64,000 nt of DNA, from NCBI RefSeq assembly GCF_006539925.1, contig NZ_BJNY01000001.1, positions 124,001 through 188,000 on the forward strand. The letters are read 5' to 3'. Origin of the DNA: Glutamicibacter uratoxydans (GTDB lineage: Bacteria > Actinomycetota > Actinomycetes > Actinomycetales > Micrococcaceae). The notes under the pieces are model-generated. The model was not told the origin of the DNA and did no database searches. It was given only the letters and a program-made list of their open reading frames with translations. A program made the translations under genes and the position numbers. Each line of letters starts with the position of its first letter. Positions within the stretch are counted from its first letter, which is position 1. Shown here piece by piece: positions 711-9,749 of the stretch.

Positions 711-1925
711 ATGACCTTGAACATCGCAGCCGCCGCCGAATCCTCCTCGGCGGCCCCCGTCAACGCCGAAGAGCTCGCCGCCAAGGTGCTGGAAGGCCAC
801 AAGCTCACCGAAGCTGAAGCACTGGGAATCCTGGCCACCCCCGACTACGCCACCCTGCCGCTGGTCGGCGCCGCCGGCACCCTGCGCCGCAAGTACTTCG
901 GCAATAGCGTCAAGGTCAACTACCTGGTCAACCTGAAATCGGGCCTCTGCCCCGAAGACTGCACCTACTGCTCCCAGCGCCTGGGCTCCACGGCCGAGAT
1001 CCTCAAGTACACCTGGCTCAAGGCAGATGAAGCTGTAGCCCAGGCCGGGTACGGCATCGCCGGGGGCGCCTCCCGAGTCTGCATGGTGGCCTCCGGCAAG
1101 GGGCCGACGGACCGCGATGTGGACCGCGTGGCCACCATGGTCGAACAGCTCAAGGAAGAGCACCCGCAGGTCGAGGTCTGCGCCTGTCTGGGCATCCTCA
1201 AGGACGGGCAGGCCGCCCGACTCAAGGACGCCGGAGCCGACGCCTACAACCACAATCTGAACACCTCCGAATCTCTCTACCCCGAAATCTGCACCTCGCA
1301 CAGCTACCAGGACCGCGTCAACACCGTGCAGCAGGCCCAAGCCGCCGGGCTTTCCTCCTGCTCCGGCCTGATCGTCGGGCTTGGCGAAACCCCCGAGCAG
1401 CTGGTGGAGGCGGTCTTCGCGCTGCGCGAGCTGGGCTCGGAGTCCATCCCGGTGAACTTCCTCATGCCATTTGACGGCACCCCCATGGAAGGCACCTGGC
1501 TGCTGACCCCACTGGCCTGCCTGCGCATCCTCGCCCTAGTGCGCATGGCCTGCCCTGACAAGGAGCTGCGTATCGCCGGAGGACGCGAAATGCACCTGCG
1601 CTCGCTGCAGTCCACCGCGCTGGAAGTTGCCAATTCGATCTTCCTGGGCGACTACCTGACCAGCGAAGGCCAGGGTGCCAAGAAGGATCTGGAGATGATC
1701 GCCGACGCAGGCTTCGTGGTGCTGGGGCAGGAAGCTTCCAGCCCGGCCGAGGTGGCCCGCCGCTTGCAGGAAGCCGCCCATGCCGCAGGCCACCAGGAAG
1801 CTGCTCCCGACGCAGCGGGCGGAGGCTGCGGCACCGGCTGCTCCACCGGGTGCGGATCCGGCGCCCAGCGCGAGCCCGTGCTGCGCCGCCGCGGGGCCGG
1901 CACCAAGGAAGACCCGAACGCATGA
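711..1925 (+). CDS. bioB: Biotin synthase with a Cys-rich C-terminal tail
   Basis: Radical-SAM enzyme inserting sulfur into dethiobiotin, the last step of biotin synthesis (404 aa). The SAM-cluster motif CPEDCTYC gives C80, C84 and C87. Counterparts of the [2Fe-2S] ligands of E. coli BioB are C124 (RVCMVASG), C157 (EVCACLG), C217 ([10 protein letters not shown]) and R292 (GGREMHLR), so this is the classical type. Beyond the normal end of the family lies an Ala/Gly-rich tail with C373, C377 and C381 in a CxxxCxxxC array, then a basic end; its role is unknown. The ATG follows GGAAAGG. First gene of the operon; its TGA overlaps the bioA start by 4 bp. Confidence 0.95.
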
Positions 1926-3292
1926 AAACCGCAGCAGAATCCCTGCTGGACAGGGATGCGGGGCTGCTCTGGCACCCCTACGCATCGTTGGATTCGGGCG
2001 CACTGTATGCGGTGGCCCAGGCCCAGGGCGCAGAGCTGCTGCTGCAGGACGCGCACGGCGGCGAACACCGGGTCGTTGACGGCATGGCCTCGTGGTGGTC
2101 CATGGTGCACGGCTATTGCAACCCGGCATTGGACGCCGCGGCCCATGCCCAGATCGAAAAGTTCAGCCACGTCATGTTCGGCGGGCTGACCCACCAGCCG
2201 GCAGTAGAACTGGCCGAACGGCTGGTGGCCATGGCCCCGCCGAGCCTGCGGCACGTCTTCCTCGCCGATTCCGGTTCGATCAGCGTGGAGGTGGCGCTCA
2301 AGCTCGCCCTGCAGTACCAGGACGCCAAGGGCCGCCCGGAACGCCAGCGCTTCCTGGCCCTGCGCGGCGGATACCACGGAGACACCTTCGCAGCGATGAG
2401 CGTCTGCGACCCGGTGGACGGCATGCATTCGGCCTTCGCGCCGCTGTGCAGCCAGCAGGTCTTCGCCCCGCGCCCTCCCGCCGCCGAGCATACCGTCGGC
2501 GGCGATTGGCTCTATGACGAAGAGGAGCTGGAGATCTGGGAGGCCCAGACCCGGCGCCTGGCCGCCGAACATGCAGGCTCCCTGGCGGGAATCATCGCCG
2601 AGCCGGTGCTGCAGGGCGCCGGCGGCATGTTCATCTACCCGCCGCGCGTGCTGAGGGTGCTGCGCGAGATTGCCGACGAGCACGCGCTGCTGCTGATCGC
2701 CGACGAAATCGCCACCGGCTTCGGGCGCACCGGAAAGCTCTTCGCCGTGCAGCATGCAGGCATAGAGCCTGACATCATGTGCGTGGGCAAGGCGCTGACC
2801 GGCGGCTATCTCTCGCTGGCCGCCATGCTCTGCATCGCCGGCGTAGCCCAGGCGCTGCGCACCGGGACAGGGAGCGCCCCGTCGGCGCTGCTGCACGGCC
2901 CGACCTTCATGGGCAACCCGCTGGCCTGCGCCATTGCCTGCGCTTCGCTGGACCTGCTCACCGGCTCAGGCGGCGCGGGCATCGAACCTGCACAGGCCCC
3001 TTGGCAGGTGCAGGTAGCGCGGCTGGAACGCGGGCTGCGCAGCTCGCTGGCCCCGGCCCGCGCCCTTGACGCGGTGCGGGAAGTGCGGGTGCTCGGCGGC
3101 GTCGGAGTCATCGCCCTGCATGAACCGGCAGGCGTCGCCCAGCTGAGCGCCGCGGCGGTTGAACGCGGCGCATGGGTGCGGCCCTTCAGGAATCTGGTCT
3201 ACGTGATGCCACCATATATCTGCACCGATGCCCAGCTCCAGCAGCTCGGCGCCGCGATGACCGGAGCCGTCAACCAGGTCTATGGAGGCTGA
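1922..3292 (+). CDS. bioA: Adenosylmethionine-8-amino-7-oxononanoate (DAPA) aminotransferase
   Basis: PLP-dependent class III aminotransferase that converts KAPA to 7,8-diaminopelargonate with SAM as amino donor (456 aa). The start at 1922 overlaps the bioB stop (ATGA); an upstream in-frame start inside bioB was rejected. Visible motifs are WHPYAS near the N-terminus, DGMASWWS, the [14 protein letters not shown] helix, the PLP aspartate in [12 protein letters not shown], and the Schiff-base lysine K290 in [10 protein letters not shown]. Length and motif order are normal for BioA. It ends one base before the bioF start, with the bioF Shine-Dalgarno GGAGG inside its last codons. Confidence 0.96.
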
Positions 3293-3293
3293 G

Positions 3294-4478
3294 ATGACAA
3301 CGCTTGCCACGACCAATCCAGCCTGGGAGCGCTGGCTGTCCACCCGCTCCACGGTGCGCGCCGCGCGGGACATGCAGCGCGTGGACACCTCGCGGGAAAC
3401 CCTGTTCGATCTGGCCTCCAACGACTATCTGGGGCTGGGCAGCCATCCGCAGGTCCGCCACGGCGCGATCAACGCGGTGTGCAGCGCGGGGGCCGGGGCC
3501 GGAGCCAGCCGGGTGGCCGGCGGGACCTGGCAGGTCCACCGAGAGCTGGAAGCCGCGCTGGCTGGCTACACCGGGCGCAGCCAGGCGTTGGTGTTCTCCA
3601 GCGGGTACACCGCCAATCTGGGCGTGCTCGGAGCGTTGGGCGGGCCGGGCAGCCTGATGCTGCTCGATGCCCACGCCCATGCCAGTTTGATCGACGGCGC
3701 GAAGCTCTCCGGCGCCGCCGTGCAGTACTTCGAGCACAACAACCTCGACGCGCTGCGCACGCTGCTGGCGGCCAACGCTACAAGCGCCGCGCCGAAGCCC
3801 CGGGTGCTGGTGGCGGCCGAATCCATCTATTCGGTGCTCGGCGACGCCGCGCCGCTGCGCGAACTGGCGGTGCTGTGCGCGCAGTTCGACGCGCTGCTGC
3901 TGGTGGACGAGGCGCACTCGCTGGCGGCGGTGCCCGGCGGGTCTGCGCTCAAGTCCGCCGGGCTGGCCCAGGCCGGCCACGTGCTGGCCACCGCCACGCT
4001 GTCCAAGGCGCTGGGATCCCAGGGCGGTGCAGTGCTCTTGGGCGGAGCCGGTGCGCCGCTGTGGCGCGAGCACCTGCTGAACACCGCGCGCACCTTCATC
4101 TTCGACACCGCCTTGGCACCTGCCACGGCGGCCGCGGCCCATGCGGCGCTGGACCTGGCCACCGAGGCGCGCATCGGCCAGCTGGCGGCCAATGCGCAGC
4201 TGATCCGCACGGTGCTCGGCGCTCAGGATCAGCTCGCTTCCCGGATCCAGGCAGACGCCGGGGCCGTGCAATCGGTGCTCATGCAATCCGCGCAGCAGGC
4301 GGTGCAGGCGGCGGCCGAACTGCGCGAGCAGGGGATCGCTGTCAGCTGCTTCAGGCCGCCGAGCGTCCCGGACGGGATCTCGCGGCTGCGCCTGACGGCC
4401 CACGCCGGCCATGAGCAGGACGAACTTGCCTCCGCGCTGGCGGCGGTGGCCCGCACCATCAGGAAGGTTGAAGCATGA
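3294..4478 (+). CDS. bioF: 8-amino-7-oxononanoate synthase
   Basis: PLP enzyme of the alpha-oxoamine synthase family. It condenses a pimeloyl thioester with L-alanine to KAPA, the first ring-building step (394 aa). ATG 3294 was chosen because GGAGG at 3284-3288 sits 5 bases upstream; an in-frame ATG at 3282 lies inside bioA. Motifs are LASNDYLGLGSHP, GAGASRVAGGTWQVHRELE (substrate glycine loop), the PLP-contacting DEAHSLA, and K238 in TLSKALGSQGG. Its stop overlaps the P450 start by 4 bp, so the P450 is translated from the same message that supplies its presumed customer. Confidence 0.95.
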   Translation: MTTLATTNPAWERWLSTRSTVRAARDMQRVDTSRETLFDLASNDYLGLGSHPQVRHGAINAVCSAGAGAGASRVAGGTWQVHRELEAALAGYTGRSQALVFSSGYTANLGVLGALGGPGSLMLLDAHAHASLIDGAKLSGAAVQYFEHNNLDALRTLLAANATSAAPKPRVLVAAESIYSVLGDAAPLRELAVLCAQFDALLLVDEAHSLAAVPGGSALKSAGLAQAGHVLATATLSKALGSQGGAVLLGGAGAPLWREHLLNTARTFIFDTALAPATAAAAHAALDLATEARIGQLAANAQLIRTVLGAQDQLASRIQADAGAVQSVLMQSAQQAVQAAAELREQGIAVSCFRPPSVPDGISRLRLTAHAGHEQDELASALAAVARTIRKVEA

Positions 4479-5671
4479 GCTGTCCCTATGCCGGCACGCT
4501 GGCTCCCGAAGAGCTTTCGGGCATCGCCGGCGCCCCCTTGGCCCAGCCGCTGGAACAGGCCTTCCCCGATGTGGTCAACCAGCGCTACAGCAGCATTGAA
4601 GCCCCGGAGATGGTCCGCGAAATCCTGCGCAGGGCCCAGGAATTCACCCCGGCCAATGCGCTGCATGCCGCGGTGGGCCTCGCACCGGCGACCCTGCGCA
4701 TCCTCGCCCGCGGCCGGTTCGCCCTGCCGCCGGTGCTTGCCAGCGCCTCCGGGCCCGAGCACCTGGCGGTGCGCCGCATCGTCGCAGGGTTCTTCAGCCC
4801 TGCCAAGGTCCAGGCGCAGAGCGGATTCATTGCGCGCCGCACCAGCGAACTGTGTGAGCAGCTGCGCGAACGGCTCGCGAACGGGGAGCAGCTGGACCTC
4901 GCCGTTGAGCTGGCGGCGCCCATCCCGCCCGAGGTCATGGCCCGGATGACCAATACGCCTGCCCCGCCCACTGAGCAGCTGAAAGCCTGGAGCAGGGATT
5001 CGCTGGAGCTCTTCTGGGGCTGGCCCGACGAACAGCGCCAGCAGGTGCTGGCCCGCAGCGCGGTGCAGTACCACGCCTGGCTGCGCGGCAGCGTGGATCA
5101 GGCGCTGCAACGCGGGGACGAAAACCTCTATACGGCCCTGCACCGCGGCGGGGTGGACCGGGCAAGGATCGTGTCCCTTGCCTACTTCCTGGGCATCGCC
5201 GGGCAGGAAACCACCACCATGCTCATCCAGAGCGCGCTGCTTTCAGCCCTGCACGACGGCCGCTGGGCCGACTGCGCGGCGGCGGAAACCGGCAGGGACA
5301 GCAGCCAAGAGGTGGTGGCGCAGGTGCTGCTGAACGCCTCGTCCGTCCCGACCTGGCGGCGCATCGCCCAAGAGGACGCCAAGGTGCTTGGCCGCCGTTT
5401 CAGCCGGGGCGAAGAACTGGTGCTCCGGCTCTCCGGCGGGCAGAACGCAGAACTGGGGGACGACTCGCTGGTCTTCGGCTTCGGCCTGCACCGCTGCCTG
5501 GGCGCCAAACTCGCCCGCATGGAAACCGAGATGGTGCTGCATGCGGCGGCCGCGGCGCTGCCGGACATCGAGCTGGTCTACCGCGCCCCTGGCTGGCGGC
5601 ACCTGGTTTCATTCCAAACACCGGACCGTGTACTCGTTCGGTCACAACCATCGGGAGGGAACAACTCATGA
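4475..5671 (+). CDS. Cytochrome P450 of the biotin operon, BioI-like by position, lacking ExxR
   Basis: 398-aa soluble bacterial-type P450. It has the C-helix GPEHLAVRRIVAGFF, an I-helix AGQETTT (residues 242-248, with E245/T246 as the oxygen-activating acid/alcohol pair), and the heme loop FGFGLHRCLGAKLA with axial C341. The K-helix ExxR is missing: the aligned stretch AQVLLNASSV has Q283 and L286 where Glu and Arg are expected, while the following RRIAQED strand is normal. It overlaps bioF and bioD by 4 bp each. In Bacillus, the P450 BioI makes the pimeloyl precursor by cleaving acyl-ACP; a similar role is inferred from position only, since no bioC, bioH or bioW is in the window. Confidence 0.85.
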   Translation: MSCPYAGTLAPEELSGIAGAPLAQPLEQAFPDVVNQRYSSIEAPEMVREILRRAQEFTPANALHAAVGLAPATLRILARGRFALPPVLASASGPEHLAVRRIVAGFFSPAKVQAQSGFIARRTSELCEQLRERLANGEQLDLAVELAAPIPPEVMARMTNTPAPPTEQLKAWSRDSLELFWGWPDEQRQQVLARSAVQYHAWLRGSVDQALQRGDENLYTALHRGGVDRARIVSLAYFLGIAGQETTTMLIQSALLSALHDGRWADCAAAETGRDSSQEVVAQVLLNASSVPTWRRIAQEDAKVLGRRFSRGEELVLRLSGGQNAELGDDSLVFGFGLHRCLGAKLARMETEMVLHAAAAALPDIELVYRAPGWRHLVSFQTPDRVLVRSQPSGGNNS

Positions 5672-6384
5672 TCTACGTCATTACCGGCACCGATACCGAT
5701 GTCGGCAAGACCGTGGCCACCGCAGCCTTGGTGGCCCGCGAGCTGAATTCCGGCCACAGCACCGCTGTCTACAAGCCCACCCAGACGGGGGTGTCCGGCG
5801 GCGAGTTCGGCGACGCGCAGAATATCGCCGCGTGGTTGGGAGGTCCCGAAAAACTCAGCATCGCGGAAGGCGTGAGGCTGCGTGAACCGATGGCCCCGGT
5901 GGACGCGGCCCTGGCCGCCGGCGGCATGGACGCGGTCCGTGCGCTTCCAACGCTTGCACAACATCTGGCGCGCATCCGAGAATTGGCGGTGGCCCATGAC
6001 ACGGTCTTCGTAGAAGGCGCCGGCGGACTGCTGGTCAAGCTGACCGCTGCAGGGGAGACGATCGCAGATCTGGCGGCGGCGCTGGATGCTGCGCTGGTCG
6101 TGGTCACCCGCCCGGATCTGGGAACGCTGAACCATACCGCCCTGACCCTGGAAGCCACGGCCAGCCGGGGCTTCACCAGCGGCTCGCTTATCCTGGGCAG
6201 CTATCCGAAGAATCCCACTCTCCTGCATCGCAGCAACCTGGGAAACCTGAAAGAACTTGCAGAAGCCCAGCACTGGCACTTCGCCGGCGCGCTTCCCGCC
6301 GGCCTGGCAACCGTAAACTGTGCAGAGCGCCTGGTGAAGGCGGGGTTGTCGCTCTCGGCAGTCAACGCCGCGGCGCACGCTTAA
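5668..6384 (+). CDS. bioD: ATP-dependent dethiobiotin synthetase
   Basis: Closes the ureido ring of dethiobiotin from DAPA, CO2 and ATP (238 aa). The N-terminal P-loop TGTDTDVGKT (K14) is diagnostic. YKPTQTGV and VEGAGGLLVKL match the substrate-carbamate and Mg2+ loops. The ATG follows GGGAGGGAAC and overlaps the P450 stop by 4 bp. It is the last gene of the operon, so the pathway from KAPA to biotin is complete here (bioF, bioA, bioD, bioB). Confidence 0.95.
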   Translation: MIYVITGTDTDVGKTVATAALVARELNSGHSTAVYKPTQTGVSGGEFGDAQNIAAWLGGPEKLSIAEGVRLREPMAPVDAALAAGGMDAVRALPTLAQHLARIRELAVAHDTVFVEGAGGLLVKLTAAGETIADLAAALDAALVVVTRPDLGTLNHTALTLEATASRGFTSGSLILGSYPKNPTLLHRSNLGNLKELAEAQHWHFAGALPAGLATVNCAERLVKAGLSLSAVNAAAHA

Positions 6385-6472: not shown

Positions 6473-7144
6473 GTGAGTACAGCCGAGCAGGATTTAACAG
6501 GACGGGCCAGGTTGCGCGACGCCGCAATCGAGGCCTTCGCCGCGCAGGGATTTGATGTTTCCCTGCGGGCGATCGCCGCCCGCGCCGGCGTCACCGCGGG
6601 GCTGGTGCGCCACCACTTCGGCTCCAAAGAAGCGCTGCGCGCAGAGTGTGACGCGACGGTGCTGGAGCGCTACCGCCGCATGAAGGAAGACTCCCTGGAG
6701 GCCAGCCCCCAGCAGGTCTTCAACCACCTGCCCAGCTCCCGCGAGGGCGGAGTGCTGATCCTGTATATCCTGCGTTCGGTGCGCGACGGCGCCCAGGCAG
6801 GCACGCAATTCACCGAGCAGCTGATCGAAGAAGCGCTCAACCTATTGGACCGGTCCGTTCAACGCGGGCTGATCGTCCCGAGCCGCAATGAACCGGCCCG
6901 GGCACGCTTTCTGGTTTTGCAGTCCCTCGGCGCGCTGGTGCTGCACTTCGCGCTGAACCCGCCGCAGGACCCGGAAGACTTCGCCACCGTGATGCAGGAA
7001 TACTACGCACAAGTTGCCCTGCCCACCCTGGAGCTTTTCTCCGAAGGGCTGTTCACCGACCCGGCCTATCTCAACGAGTACCTGGCCGCCGGCACAGCCG
7101 ATGTCCCGCCCGCGGGATCCGCGGGAACTGCCGAATCTCGGTAA
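6473..7144 (+). CDS. TetR/AcrR-family regulator next to an ABC exporter
   Basis: 223-aa one-domain repressor. The N-terminal helix-turn-helix is typical: [20 protein letters not shown], followed by [10 protein letters not shown]. The remaining all-helical part would bind the inducer. GTG 6473 was chosen because the family N-terminus begins about here; a TTG at 6437 is possible, and neither has a well-placed Shine-Dalgarno sequence. It ends 11 bp before the ABC ATPase, so it most likely controls that exporter. It could instead be the biotin regulator (BioQ is a TetR protein), but no TTGAAC-N3-GTTCAA site lies before it. Confidence 0.8.
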
Positions 7145-7155
7145 AGGAGTACGCC

Positions 7156-8088
7156 ATGGCCACCACCATTCCGGCCATTGAAGTGAGCGGACTGCACAAG
7201 AACTTTGGGCGCACCGCCGCCCTGTCGGGTTTGGACCTGCGGGTTGAATCCGGCCAAGTCGCCGGGTTCCTCGGACCGAACGGCGCAGGAAAATCCACCA
7301 CCATCCGCATCCTGCTCGGCCTGCTGAAGGCCGACGGGGGACACGCCCGGATGCTCGGCGCCGACCCCTGGGCCGATGCTGTGGCCCTGCACCGGCGCGT
7401 CGCCTACGTCCCCGGCGAGGTGAACCTCTGGCCCAACCTCACCGGCGGACAGGCCATCAGCATCCTGTCCAAGCTGCATGGCCAGGTCGACGAACAGCGC
7501 CGCAGCCAGCTGCTTGAACGCTTCGACCTCGACCCCTCCAAGAAGGCACGCAGCTACTCCAAGGGCAACCGCCAAAAGGTCGCCCTGGTCGCGGCGCTCT
7601 CCTCCCGCGCCGAATTGCTGCTGTTGGACGAGCCGACCTCCGGTTTGGACCCGCTGATGGAGCAGGTCTTCACCTCCTGCATCCGCGAGGCCGCCGACGA
7701 GGGGCGCAGCGTGCTGCTCTCCAGCCACATCTTCGCCGAGGTGGAGAAGCTGTGCGATACGGTGACCATCATTCGCGACGGGCAGACCGTTGAGGCGGGC
7801 CGCTTGACCGATCTGCGCCACCTGCAGCGCACCCAGATCACGGTAGAAGTATCGACAGACCCCTACGAGCTGTCCGCTGTTGCAGGCATCGAGGACCTGA
7901 AGGTCTCCGGCGCCGTCGCAAGCTTCAGCGTCGACCCGGCCCAGCTTCCCGCGGTGCTGGCCGCCCTGGCCAGCCATGCGCCGCGCAACCTGGTCAGCGC
8001 CCCTCCGTCGCTGGAGGACCTTTTCCTGCGCCATTACTCAGATGAGGCTCGCACCCCTGTCACTGCCCGGGGAGGCGAACTGCGATGA
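7156..8088 (+). CDS. ABC transporter ATP-binding protein (drug-exporter type)
   Basis: 310-aa nucleotide-binding subunit. Visible are Walker [10 protein letters not shown] (about residue 40), a Q-loop region, the signature YSKGNRQKV (a variant of LSGGQ, as in DrrA-like exporters), Walker [14 protein letters not shown] and the switch [13 protein letters not shown]. The C-terminal extension of about 80 residues is typical of DrrA/CcmA ATPases paired with an ABC-2 permease. The start follows AAAGGAG. Its TGA overlaps the permease ATG by 4 bp. The substrate is unknown. Confidence 0.9.
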
Positions 8089-9749
8089 GCACCGGCACCA
8101 CGCATGGACGGCATGTACTGGCAGAGAAGACCCTGCCCTCGGCAGCCGCAGCCGGCCGTACCGGAACGCTCACCGGCCTCGGCACCGCGGCCCGGTTCAT
8201 TCTTCGCCGCAATTGGCTGAGGCTGGCCATTTGGGCCCTGGTGCTGGCCTCGATGATTCCCATCGTCTTTGATTCGCAGCAGCAGGCATTCCCTACGCAG
8301 GCAGATCGTGACGCTTATGCACAGGTGGCGAACACCCCGGCAGTGGCGGCCATGACGGGCCTGCCCTATGCCGCCGGCTCGCTGGGCGGCATCCTGGTCA
8401 TCAAGATCTGGATGACGCTCGCGGTCGCCCTGGCCTTTGCCGTCGTCTTCTTGATTACGCGCAATGGGCGCGCCGATGAAGAGACCGGACGTACCGAGTT
8501 GCTGCGCTCCACTGCCTTGGGCCGCCACGCTTACTCGGCGGCGAACTACCTCGTGTCAGCTGGGCTCTGCGTGGTCACGGGACTCATGATCAGTCTGCTG
8601 TGCCTGTCGGTGAACCTGCCCAGCAACGGCAGCTGGGTCATGGGCGCCTCCATCGCTGGCACTGGCCTGGCCTTCGTCGGCCTAGCGGCTATCTGCGGGC
8701 AGCTGGCTTCTACCAGCCGCGGAGCAAATTCGCTGGGCGTGGCGCTGATCGGGCTGTTCTACTTCATCCGCGCCGGAGCCGACCTGCAGGCCGACGGCGC
8801 GAATCCCAGCGCACTGAGCTGGCTGTCGCCGATCGGCTGGGCGCTGAACATGCGAGCCTTCGGCGAGGACAACTGGTGGCCGCTGCTGGCCTTGCTCGCC
8901 TTGTCCGCCGCTGGATGCCTGTTGGCCCTGCGCCTTGAAAGCACACGTGACCTCGGCGCCGGCATGCTCCCAGAACGTCGCGGACCGGCCGCCGCAGGAA
9001 AGTTCACCGCCACAACGCTGGGGCTAACCCTGCGACTGCAGCGCTCCTCGCTAATAGGCTGGTTTGTCGGCGCCACGGTTTCCGGACTGTTCTTTGGCTC
9101 GGTGGCCCAGTCGATGAGCTCTTTGCTGGATCCGAACAATCCCTTTGCCCGAAATTTCGTCGGCACCGGACACAGCATGCTTGACGGCGTGCTGGGAATC
9201 TTCATGCTGTTCAACGCCCTGCTGGCTGGAGCCTTCGCCATCCAGTGCCTGGGCGCGGCGCGCAGCGAAGAAGAAAGCGGACGTCTGGAACAGCAGCTGG
9301 CCGGTTCGCTGTCCCGCAGTTCCTGGCTCGGTGCGCATCTGGCGGTCGCAGTGCTGGGTTCTGGGCTGATGCTGCTGCTTGCCGGCTATCTCACCGGACT
9401 GTCTTCCCAAGGATCGGCGGATCCCGGCCAGTTGGCAGGTGCATGCCTGGCCTACTGGCCGGCGGTGCTGCTGATGCTCGGCGTACAGCTGCTGGCCTTC
9501 GGCTATGTTCCGCGGTTCTCCACGGTTCTCACGTGGGCAGTGTACGGCTTGTCGATGATGGCGGCGATGTTCGGCGGGCTCTTCTCGCTCTCGGACGACG
9601 TCATCCGCGCCACCCCATTTGGCGCCATTCCCCGCGTGCCGGCGGAAGAGTTCAGTTGGACCCCATTGGCGGTTCTGCTGTTGCTCTCTCTGGTATTTGC
9701 TGCAGCCGGCATGGCGCGGTTCAGCCGGCGTGATGTGCTGGCGGACTAG
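8085..9749 (+). CDS. ABC-2 type exporter permease (polyketide antibiotic exporter-like)
   Basis: 554-aa membrane protein with about a dozen hydrophobic segments in two similar halves. The first half begins after a soluble N-terminus of about 45 residues ([18 protein letters not shown]). The second starts near residue 325 ([19 protein letters not shown]). This duplicated layout is that of the large actinobacterial ABC-2 permeases annotated as polyketide antibiotic exporters. It forms a pump with the upstream ATPase, probably inducible through the adjacent TetR protein. Export of a toxic amphiphile is inference. Confidence 0.82.

Follow-up and report, generated by a model that had tools for sequence, protein, structure and literature searches.

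We find that the biotin operon of Glutamicibacter uratoxydans encodes, between bioF and bioD, a cytochrome P450 that has neither the ExxR motif of the K helix nor the meander, and that ExxR-less P450s of this kind, found in the biotin operons of many soil actinobacteria, probably cut fatty acids to the seven-carbon precursor of biotin. Our preferred reading, to which we give a probability of roughly 0.6, is that biotin operons of actinobacteria gained this P450 in a recruitment separate from that of BioI in Bacillus, and that it would make the pimeloyl thioester for BioF. The link of the P450 to the biotin operon is firmer than this function; heme binding, substrate and C-C cleavage are properties that we infer for the protein from its sequence.

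The window (the whole stretch of DNA analysed, 64 kb) belongs to a genome of 3.79 Mb, and its operon runs bioB-bioA-bioF-P450-bioD from 711 to 6384 with every gene on the + strand. Its features, together with the P450 segments discussed below, are as follows.

568-580, + strand: BioQ box 1, perfect (TGAACNNNGTTCA); the motif used for scanning is that given in a passage of PMC3398298
624-636, + strand: BioQ box 2, perfect, same motif (TGAACNNNGTTCA)
711-1925, + strand: bioB, biotin synthase (TIGR00433, 382.6 bits; cut-off 225)
1922-3292, + strand: bioA, DAPA aminotransferase (TIGR00508, 509.8 bits; cut-off 405)
3294-4478, + strand: bioF (best model TIGR00858, 321.1 bits, below the curated cut-off of 426.45)
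4475-4478, + strand: ATGA, 4-bp overlap of bioF and the P450 gene (the bioF stop TGA is 4476-4478)
4475-5671, + strand: cytochrome P450 of the biotin operon, 398 aa, lacking ExxR and meander (open reading frame, profiles, alignment, AlphaFold)
5006-5026, + strand: ELFWGWP, residues 178-184, family signature at the F-G loop (conservation in the orthologue alignment)
5198-5212, + strand: AGQET, residues 242-246, with the I-helix acid-alcohol pair E245/T246 (87 of 87 orthologues)
5291-5338, + strand: K helix, residues 273-288, with Q283 and L286 at the ExxR columns (alignment, AlphaFold)
5339-5362, + strand: SSVPTWRR, residues 289-296 (mean top-residue frequency 0.96), which we take to be substrate site 5 (SRS5) plus the propionate-arginine region
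5432-5467, + strand: linker at the meander position, residues 320-331 (NRD in 0 of 87 orthologues; mean top-residue frequency 0.48)
5495-5497, + strand: C341, heme thiolate ligand, within FGFGLHRCLG (87 of 87 orthologues)
5668-5671, + strand: ATGA, 4-bp overlap of the P450 gene and bioD (the bioD ATG is 5668-5670)
5668-6384, + strand: bioD, dethiobiotin synthase (TIGR00347, 112.3 bits; cut-off 83.3)

The two ATGA junctions confirm the 4-bp overlaps with bioF and bioD that the earlier note had described, and the boxes at 568-580 and 624-636 are the sole perfect BioQ boxes within the 64-kb window. On the 3' side of bioD, positions 6473-9749 hold TetR regulator and ABC exporter genes; among the 80 relatives' loci introduced below, a TetR match at this position was seen in G. 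soli and G. protophormiae only.

Among 58 related genomes, 26 show some match and 17 (the window genome included) encode an orthologue with 43% identity or more. When named genomes were scanned, 136 relatives were confirmed and 80 of them kept, chosen by P450 sequence alone; in every one of these 80, bioF and/or bioD adjoin the P450 on the same strand, which bears out the proposed tie to the biotin operon. The nearest P450s in named genomes, those of G. soli and G. protophormiae, are 72-73% identical to that of the window, and the 80 hosts are mostly Arthrobacter, Glutamicibacter, Paeniglutamicibacter and other Micrococcaceae, with Ornithinimicrobium, Knoellia, Salinibacterium, Cryobacterium and Propioniferax further afield. 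Two layouts account for nearly all loci, bioF-P450-bioD (51) and bioF-bioD-P450 (27); of the remaining two, L054 is cut before bioF and L082 has bioF and lacks a bioD match. The P450 gene overlaps its upstream gene by exactly 4 bp in 47 of 78 scored relatives, and bioD by exactly 4 bp in 44 of the 50 scored relatives with the first layout; gene starts in relatives were picked automatically, and odd overlaps (such as -1245) are artefacts of starts or of long open frames. The 1.54 Mb of the 80 loci contain 66 perfect BioQ boxes, 65 of them no more than 350 bp upstream of a bioB or bioA gene, where boxes are present in 47 loci; none of the 27 bioF-bioD-P450 loci has a perfect box. Loci of this second layout (L065, L075, L078, L081 and others) carry a different type of bioB, about 35% identical, and one Glutamicibacter (G007, L161; also L077) has bioA-bioF-P450-bioD as a unit with bioB elsewhere. 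Crude clustering of open reading frames within 10 kb in the 80 loci recognised no conserved ferredoxin or reductase neighbour; the larger clusters fall on bio genes, some antisense and probably shadow frames, and the recurrent neighbours among Pfam-checked clusters were TetR (17 loci), Vsr (9) and MFS (8), along with a 633-aa frame without Pfam match in 12. We found no report of a biotin-operon P450 in Actinobacteria in the open-access literature searched, outside which most subscription journals lie.

Much of the P450 active site is invariant in the orthologues (97 sequences, 88 distinct, 87 read with L071 left out): C341, H339 of HxC, the C-helix residues H96 and R100, AGQETT and WRR (294-296) occur in 87 of 87, and all 87 satisfy both the Cys-ligand loop pattern FGxGxHxCxG and the I-helix pattern AGx(D/E)T, in keeping with the heme cysteine and AGQET first noticed in the window protein. 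Mean top-residue frequency, 0.60 overall, reaches 0.96 in SRS5, 0.94 in SRS6, 0.89 in the I helix, 0.88 in the heme loop, 0.85 at F-G and 0.73 in SRS1, and stands at 0.59 in the K helix and 0.48 at the meander position; the SRS names are our presumptive labels, positioned via the alignment. The AlphaFold model of the window P450 has a mean pLDDT of 93.1 (91-92 in the linker) and a pTM of 0.92, and all 50 fold matches listed by Foldseek for it are P450s. Against Pfam PF00067 the protein scores 21.7 bits, below the gathering cut-off of 22.8, and 83 of 86 family members match this profile at E <= 0.001 (alignment A2, with L062 left out, has 86 rows). Since loss of ExxR is tolerated in the superfamily, as in CYP157, we file the window protein as a P450 by its fold and Cys loop.

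These invariant residues also bear on whether the gene still encodes an enzyme. The missing ExxR was long considered invariant, and its absence could signal decay toward a pseudogene, yet dN/dS is 0.07-0.40 in 12 of 12 orthologue pairs tried, which indicates purifying selection, none of 17 close matches has internal stops and the active site is unchanged; we reject decay as highly improbable, and the P450 is under selection and seemingly heme-competent. A noncatalytic P450 fold, which might bind acyl-ACP and present it to BioF or activate a neighbour, would accommodate the loss of ExxR and meander and could be read from the faint match to TIGR04515, the P450-derived glycosyltransferase activators (38.4 bits, far under the cut-off of 343). 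Heme-contact and oxygen-activating residues unchanged in 87 of 87 orthologues argue against it, however, as do 14 genomes of the order that have bioAFD and do without the P450, so that such a turn of the fold to another task, which the earlier note had entertained, now appears improbable.

At the ExxR columns, E and R are found in 12 of 12 canonical P450 controls (six of them close CreJ-like kin of one another) and Q283 and L286 in the window protein, the same register as had been assigned to them before the alignment. We looked for the pair elsewhere in the K helix and rejected a shifted ExxR, as residues 276-290 of the window protein contain no E..R string; among the 87 orthologues, 13 have such a string somewhere within 276-290, but it is in register in just three. 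In the family the loss of ExxR is widespread yet not total, the Glu being retained in 13 of 87 orthologues, the Arg in 4 and both in 3 (L051, L076, L095). E283 occurs with R287 in 8 of 87 orthologues, an i/i+4 pair that is a possible stand-in for ExxR; the window protein does not have this pair. Position 286 is mostly Ala and in no orthologue Trp. CYP157 of Streptomyces stands as a precedent, its K helix being without the Arg (EVLW, EQSLW) in the part of PMC3599690 that treats it; compared through this published motif alone, CYP157 has exchanged Arg for Trp and kept Glu, whereas in the window's family Arg is mostly Ala, Glu is variable and the meander is gone.

Loss of the meander is a feature absent from the earlier note and found here. 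Its hallmark NRD occurs in 0 of 87 orthologues versus 12 of 12 controls, and a stricter meander string in 0 of 87 versus 10 of 12, although that string overlooks two controls as well as L179 and L181, whose meander region aligns full-length. From L319 to C341 the window protein has 22 residues, versus 35-36 in the controls; across orthologues this stretch ranges from 18 to 43 residues, being shorter than in controls in 67 of 87 and longer but motif-free in the other 20. We found no P450 with joint loss of ExxR and meander in the open-access literature searched, which excludes most subscription journals. One reading that fits the meander loss is that the P450 makes the pimeloyl unit as an H2O2-driven peroxygenase with no need of a redox partner: no conserved redox-partner gene was recognised in or near the operon, linker length is anywhere between 18 and 43 residues, and an excerpt of PMC3224734 names the insertion that follows the meander as a proposed reductase-contact site. 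On the other hand, the O2-activating pair E245/T246 is present in 87 of 87 orthologues. The P450 peroxygenases known to us have this acid-alcohol pair altered, and its retention here argues for ordinary O2 activation, making the H2O2-driven alternative unlikely.

To place the P450 we drew a 47-row maximum-likelihood tree with BioI as outgroup. Thirty biotin-locus P450s together with L177 and L178 form one group (support 100/100) beside CreJ, CYP116B and their kin, while BioI, with weak support (55/81), joins a canonical P450 that is not part of this clade. Profile scores agree, with 205.8 bits for CreJ, 172-179 for CYP116B proteins and 118.4 for BioI; orthology with BioI is rejected on both counts, and the independence from BioI that the earlier note had suggested is upheld. 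CreJ, the nearest solved relative, also ranks first by Foldseek (TM 0.80, 26% identity), followed by CYP116B proteins; both types keep ExxR and meander, unlike the window P450. CYP116B proteins have fused reductase domains, which the window P450, 398 aa long and ending at bioD, does not. A class-wide sample gave matches at E <= 1e-60 in 13 of 296 genomes, some of them merely CreJ-like.

Distant members of the clade (L176, L179, L180, L181) have ExxR and, by alignment, a full-length meander region, and in L175, which is sister to the Micrococcales group (97/93), the ExxR position reads QVLR and the meander is missing. These rows suggest that both elements were lost inside the biotin-locus clade, most simply with the meander going first; in the nested Micrococcus and Kocuria rows ExxR may have been retained or regained. 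Adjacency to bio genes varies at this depth: L176, L175 and L185 directly adjoin them, L179 adjoins bioB-bioA with no bioF match within 18 kb, and in L180 and L181 other genes intervene between the P450 and nearby bio genes. L177 and L178, clade members with no bio genes nearby, read AGQST, with Ser in place of the acidic I-helix residue (L177:9183-10325, L178:8862-10226).

Like the window P450, P450BioI (CYP107H1) of Bacillus subtilis is encoded in a biotin operon and has a proposed pimeloyl thioester product, and the two share an overall fold (TM 0.73, 20% identity; the BioI acyl-ACP complex is at Foldseek rank 10). BioI nevertheless belongs to another P450 branch, and its ExxR (EECLR) and meander are both intact. 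According to passages of PMC12915131 and PMC11089781, BioI cleaves acyl chains to a pimeloyl thioester, B. subtilis BioF accepts pimeloyl-CoA only and BioI is redundant in that organism, whereas the window-type P450 goes with bioF in its family; an introduction in this pair (PMC12915131/PMC11089781) calls BioI unique to B. subtilis. BioE, as outlined in a section of PMC12915131, is a diiron acyl-chain-cleaving oxygenase that leads into biotin synthesis by breaking the C7-C8 bond oxidatively, with a pimeloyl thioester as product; this resembles what we propose, but BioE is a non-heme ferritin-like enzyme unrelated to P450s. MkpG, encoded in the mkp cluster of Streptomyces, is a BioI-like P450 that a portion of PMC13336041 proposes to supply a BioF-like enzyme by cleaving an acyl chain; compared by description alone, it differs from the window P450 in serving secondary metabolism and a methylated pimelate. 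By analogy with MkpG the window P450 might oxidise something else, for instance for a modified pimelate or a biotin analogue, and the clade members L177 and L178 do lie outside bio operons; we think this doubtful, since a plain bioBAFD operon with BioQ boxes recurs across many genera and the P450 goes with bioF in the window's family.

That association was followed in the 58 related genomes, of which 28 have bioB above cut-off, including all 17 with the P450, and bioF lies next to the P450 in 17 of 17. Within the window's family, P450 and operon bioF are concordant in 26 of 26 bioB genomes (17 both, 9 neither). The nine are among the 11 other bioB genomes, and in the 19 kb read bioF, bioD and a convincing bioA are all absent from them (one has an aminotransferase match, 28% identical, 8 kb from bioB); a whole-genome bioF search gave no match in one of the nine and a single match elsewhere in eight, which we take for a paralogue also present in P450 genomes. 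These bioB-only relatives (L150-L158, that is G001, G004, G009, G010, G011, G018, G025, G033 and G034) look as if dependent on scavenged dethiobiotin, compare a passage of PMC9561691. The remaining two bioB genomes without the P450 are G040, with bioAFD, and G046, with bioF-D. In G046 a bioA-like aminotransferase gene is also followed by the gene of a canonical P450 that has both ExxR and meander, truncated by the contig end (L205:2-1003, - strand), perhaps another separate link between a P450 and biotin.

In an order-wide sample of 297 genomes, bioA is above cut-off in 26 and a P450 of at least 523 bits is present in 8, all within those 26; three (G528, G539, G559) have a gap of 1.1-1.3 kb between bioA and the P450, a size fitting a bioF. 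The 18 bioA genomes without the P450 include G040 and the partly read G046; the loci read in the other sixteen comprise 13 with bioF and 3 where bioA-bioD stand alone with bioF missing, all of them free of any P450 match. Overall, of 12 genomes in which bioB or bioA/D is present but bioF is not nearby, none has the P450, while 14 genomes of the order (loci L159, L190, L192 and L194-L204) have bioAFD and no P450 match in the 17-19 kb read, so bioF does not depend on the P450. As the sampled genomes are related, these co-occurrence counts are not independent events.

The same 14 genomes temper what can be drawn from missing pimeloyl genes. The earlier note had seen no bioC, bioH or bioW in the window: bioW indeed has no match in the 58 genomes (with positive B. 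subtilis and M. jannaschii controls), and neither bioC nor bioH is above its curated cut-off in any of them, but just 1 of 14 controls passes for each and sub-cut-off matches abound, so divergent BioC or BioH could be missed. A bioG search is uninformative, as it picked up none of its controls. In the P450-less bio operons, frames were listed for 10 loci, with nothing passing the filter in L193, and ten Pfam-checked proteins from six such loci included no known pimeloyl gene; the types present were GalT, galactokinase, FMN reductase, ASL, MFS, GNAT and DUF4282. Two genomes of one genus have an NADPH-dependent FMN reductase gene between bioB and bioA (L200:6841-7539, L202:6773-7327). Something else can therefore serve pimeloyl supply in bioAFD genomes without the P450, either a novel route or the use of pimelate, and absence of bioC, bioH and bioW counts only weakly toward a role of the P450. 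A FabH match just below its cut-off (286.5 versus 292.1 bits) suggests FAS-II.

The pathway has one step left open, that which supplies the pimeloyl thioester, and a P450 that is under selection, is seemingly heme-competent and accompanies bioF fits this step. Under our preferred reading, the P450 would oxidise C7 and C8 of an acyl chain bound to ACP (or CoA), the C7-C8 bond would be broken to leave a pimeloyl thioester, and the neighbouring BioF would condense this with alanine. Electrons would presumably come from a ferredoxin encoded elsewhere, and other contacts may substitute for the ExxR/meander scaffold. Branched fatty acids are typical of these bacteria, and a C7-C8 cut, which works whatever the far end of the chain, would suit them.

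The pimeloyl carbon source is the step at which biotin pathways differ most, and we found no assignment of it for Micrococcaceae. Micrococcus luteus is listed with an incomplete biotin operon in a portion of PMC12642757, and the P450 gene is present in two other Micrococcus species (L051, L076). Its association with bioF makes the P450 a directly testable candidate for pimeloyl supply in Micrococcaceae. Loss of ExxR was already known from CYP157; its joint loss with the meander in a biotin-operon P450 appears to be new, and the clade offers a natural series, with both elements present, partly lost and lost, for probing their role in P450s. It is about an even bet that this lineage of P450s, dedicated to biotin and present in several families of actinobacteria, represents a further, so far unnamed route to the pimeloyl unit in which ExxR and meander have been dismantled around a strongly selected active site, and that its members would be the first P450s shown to function without either.
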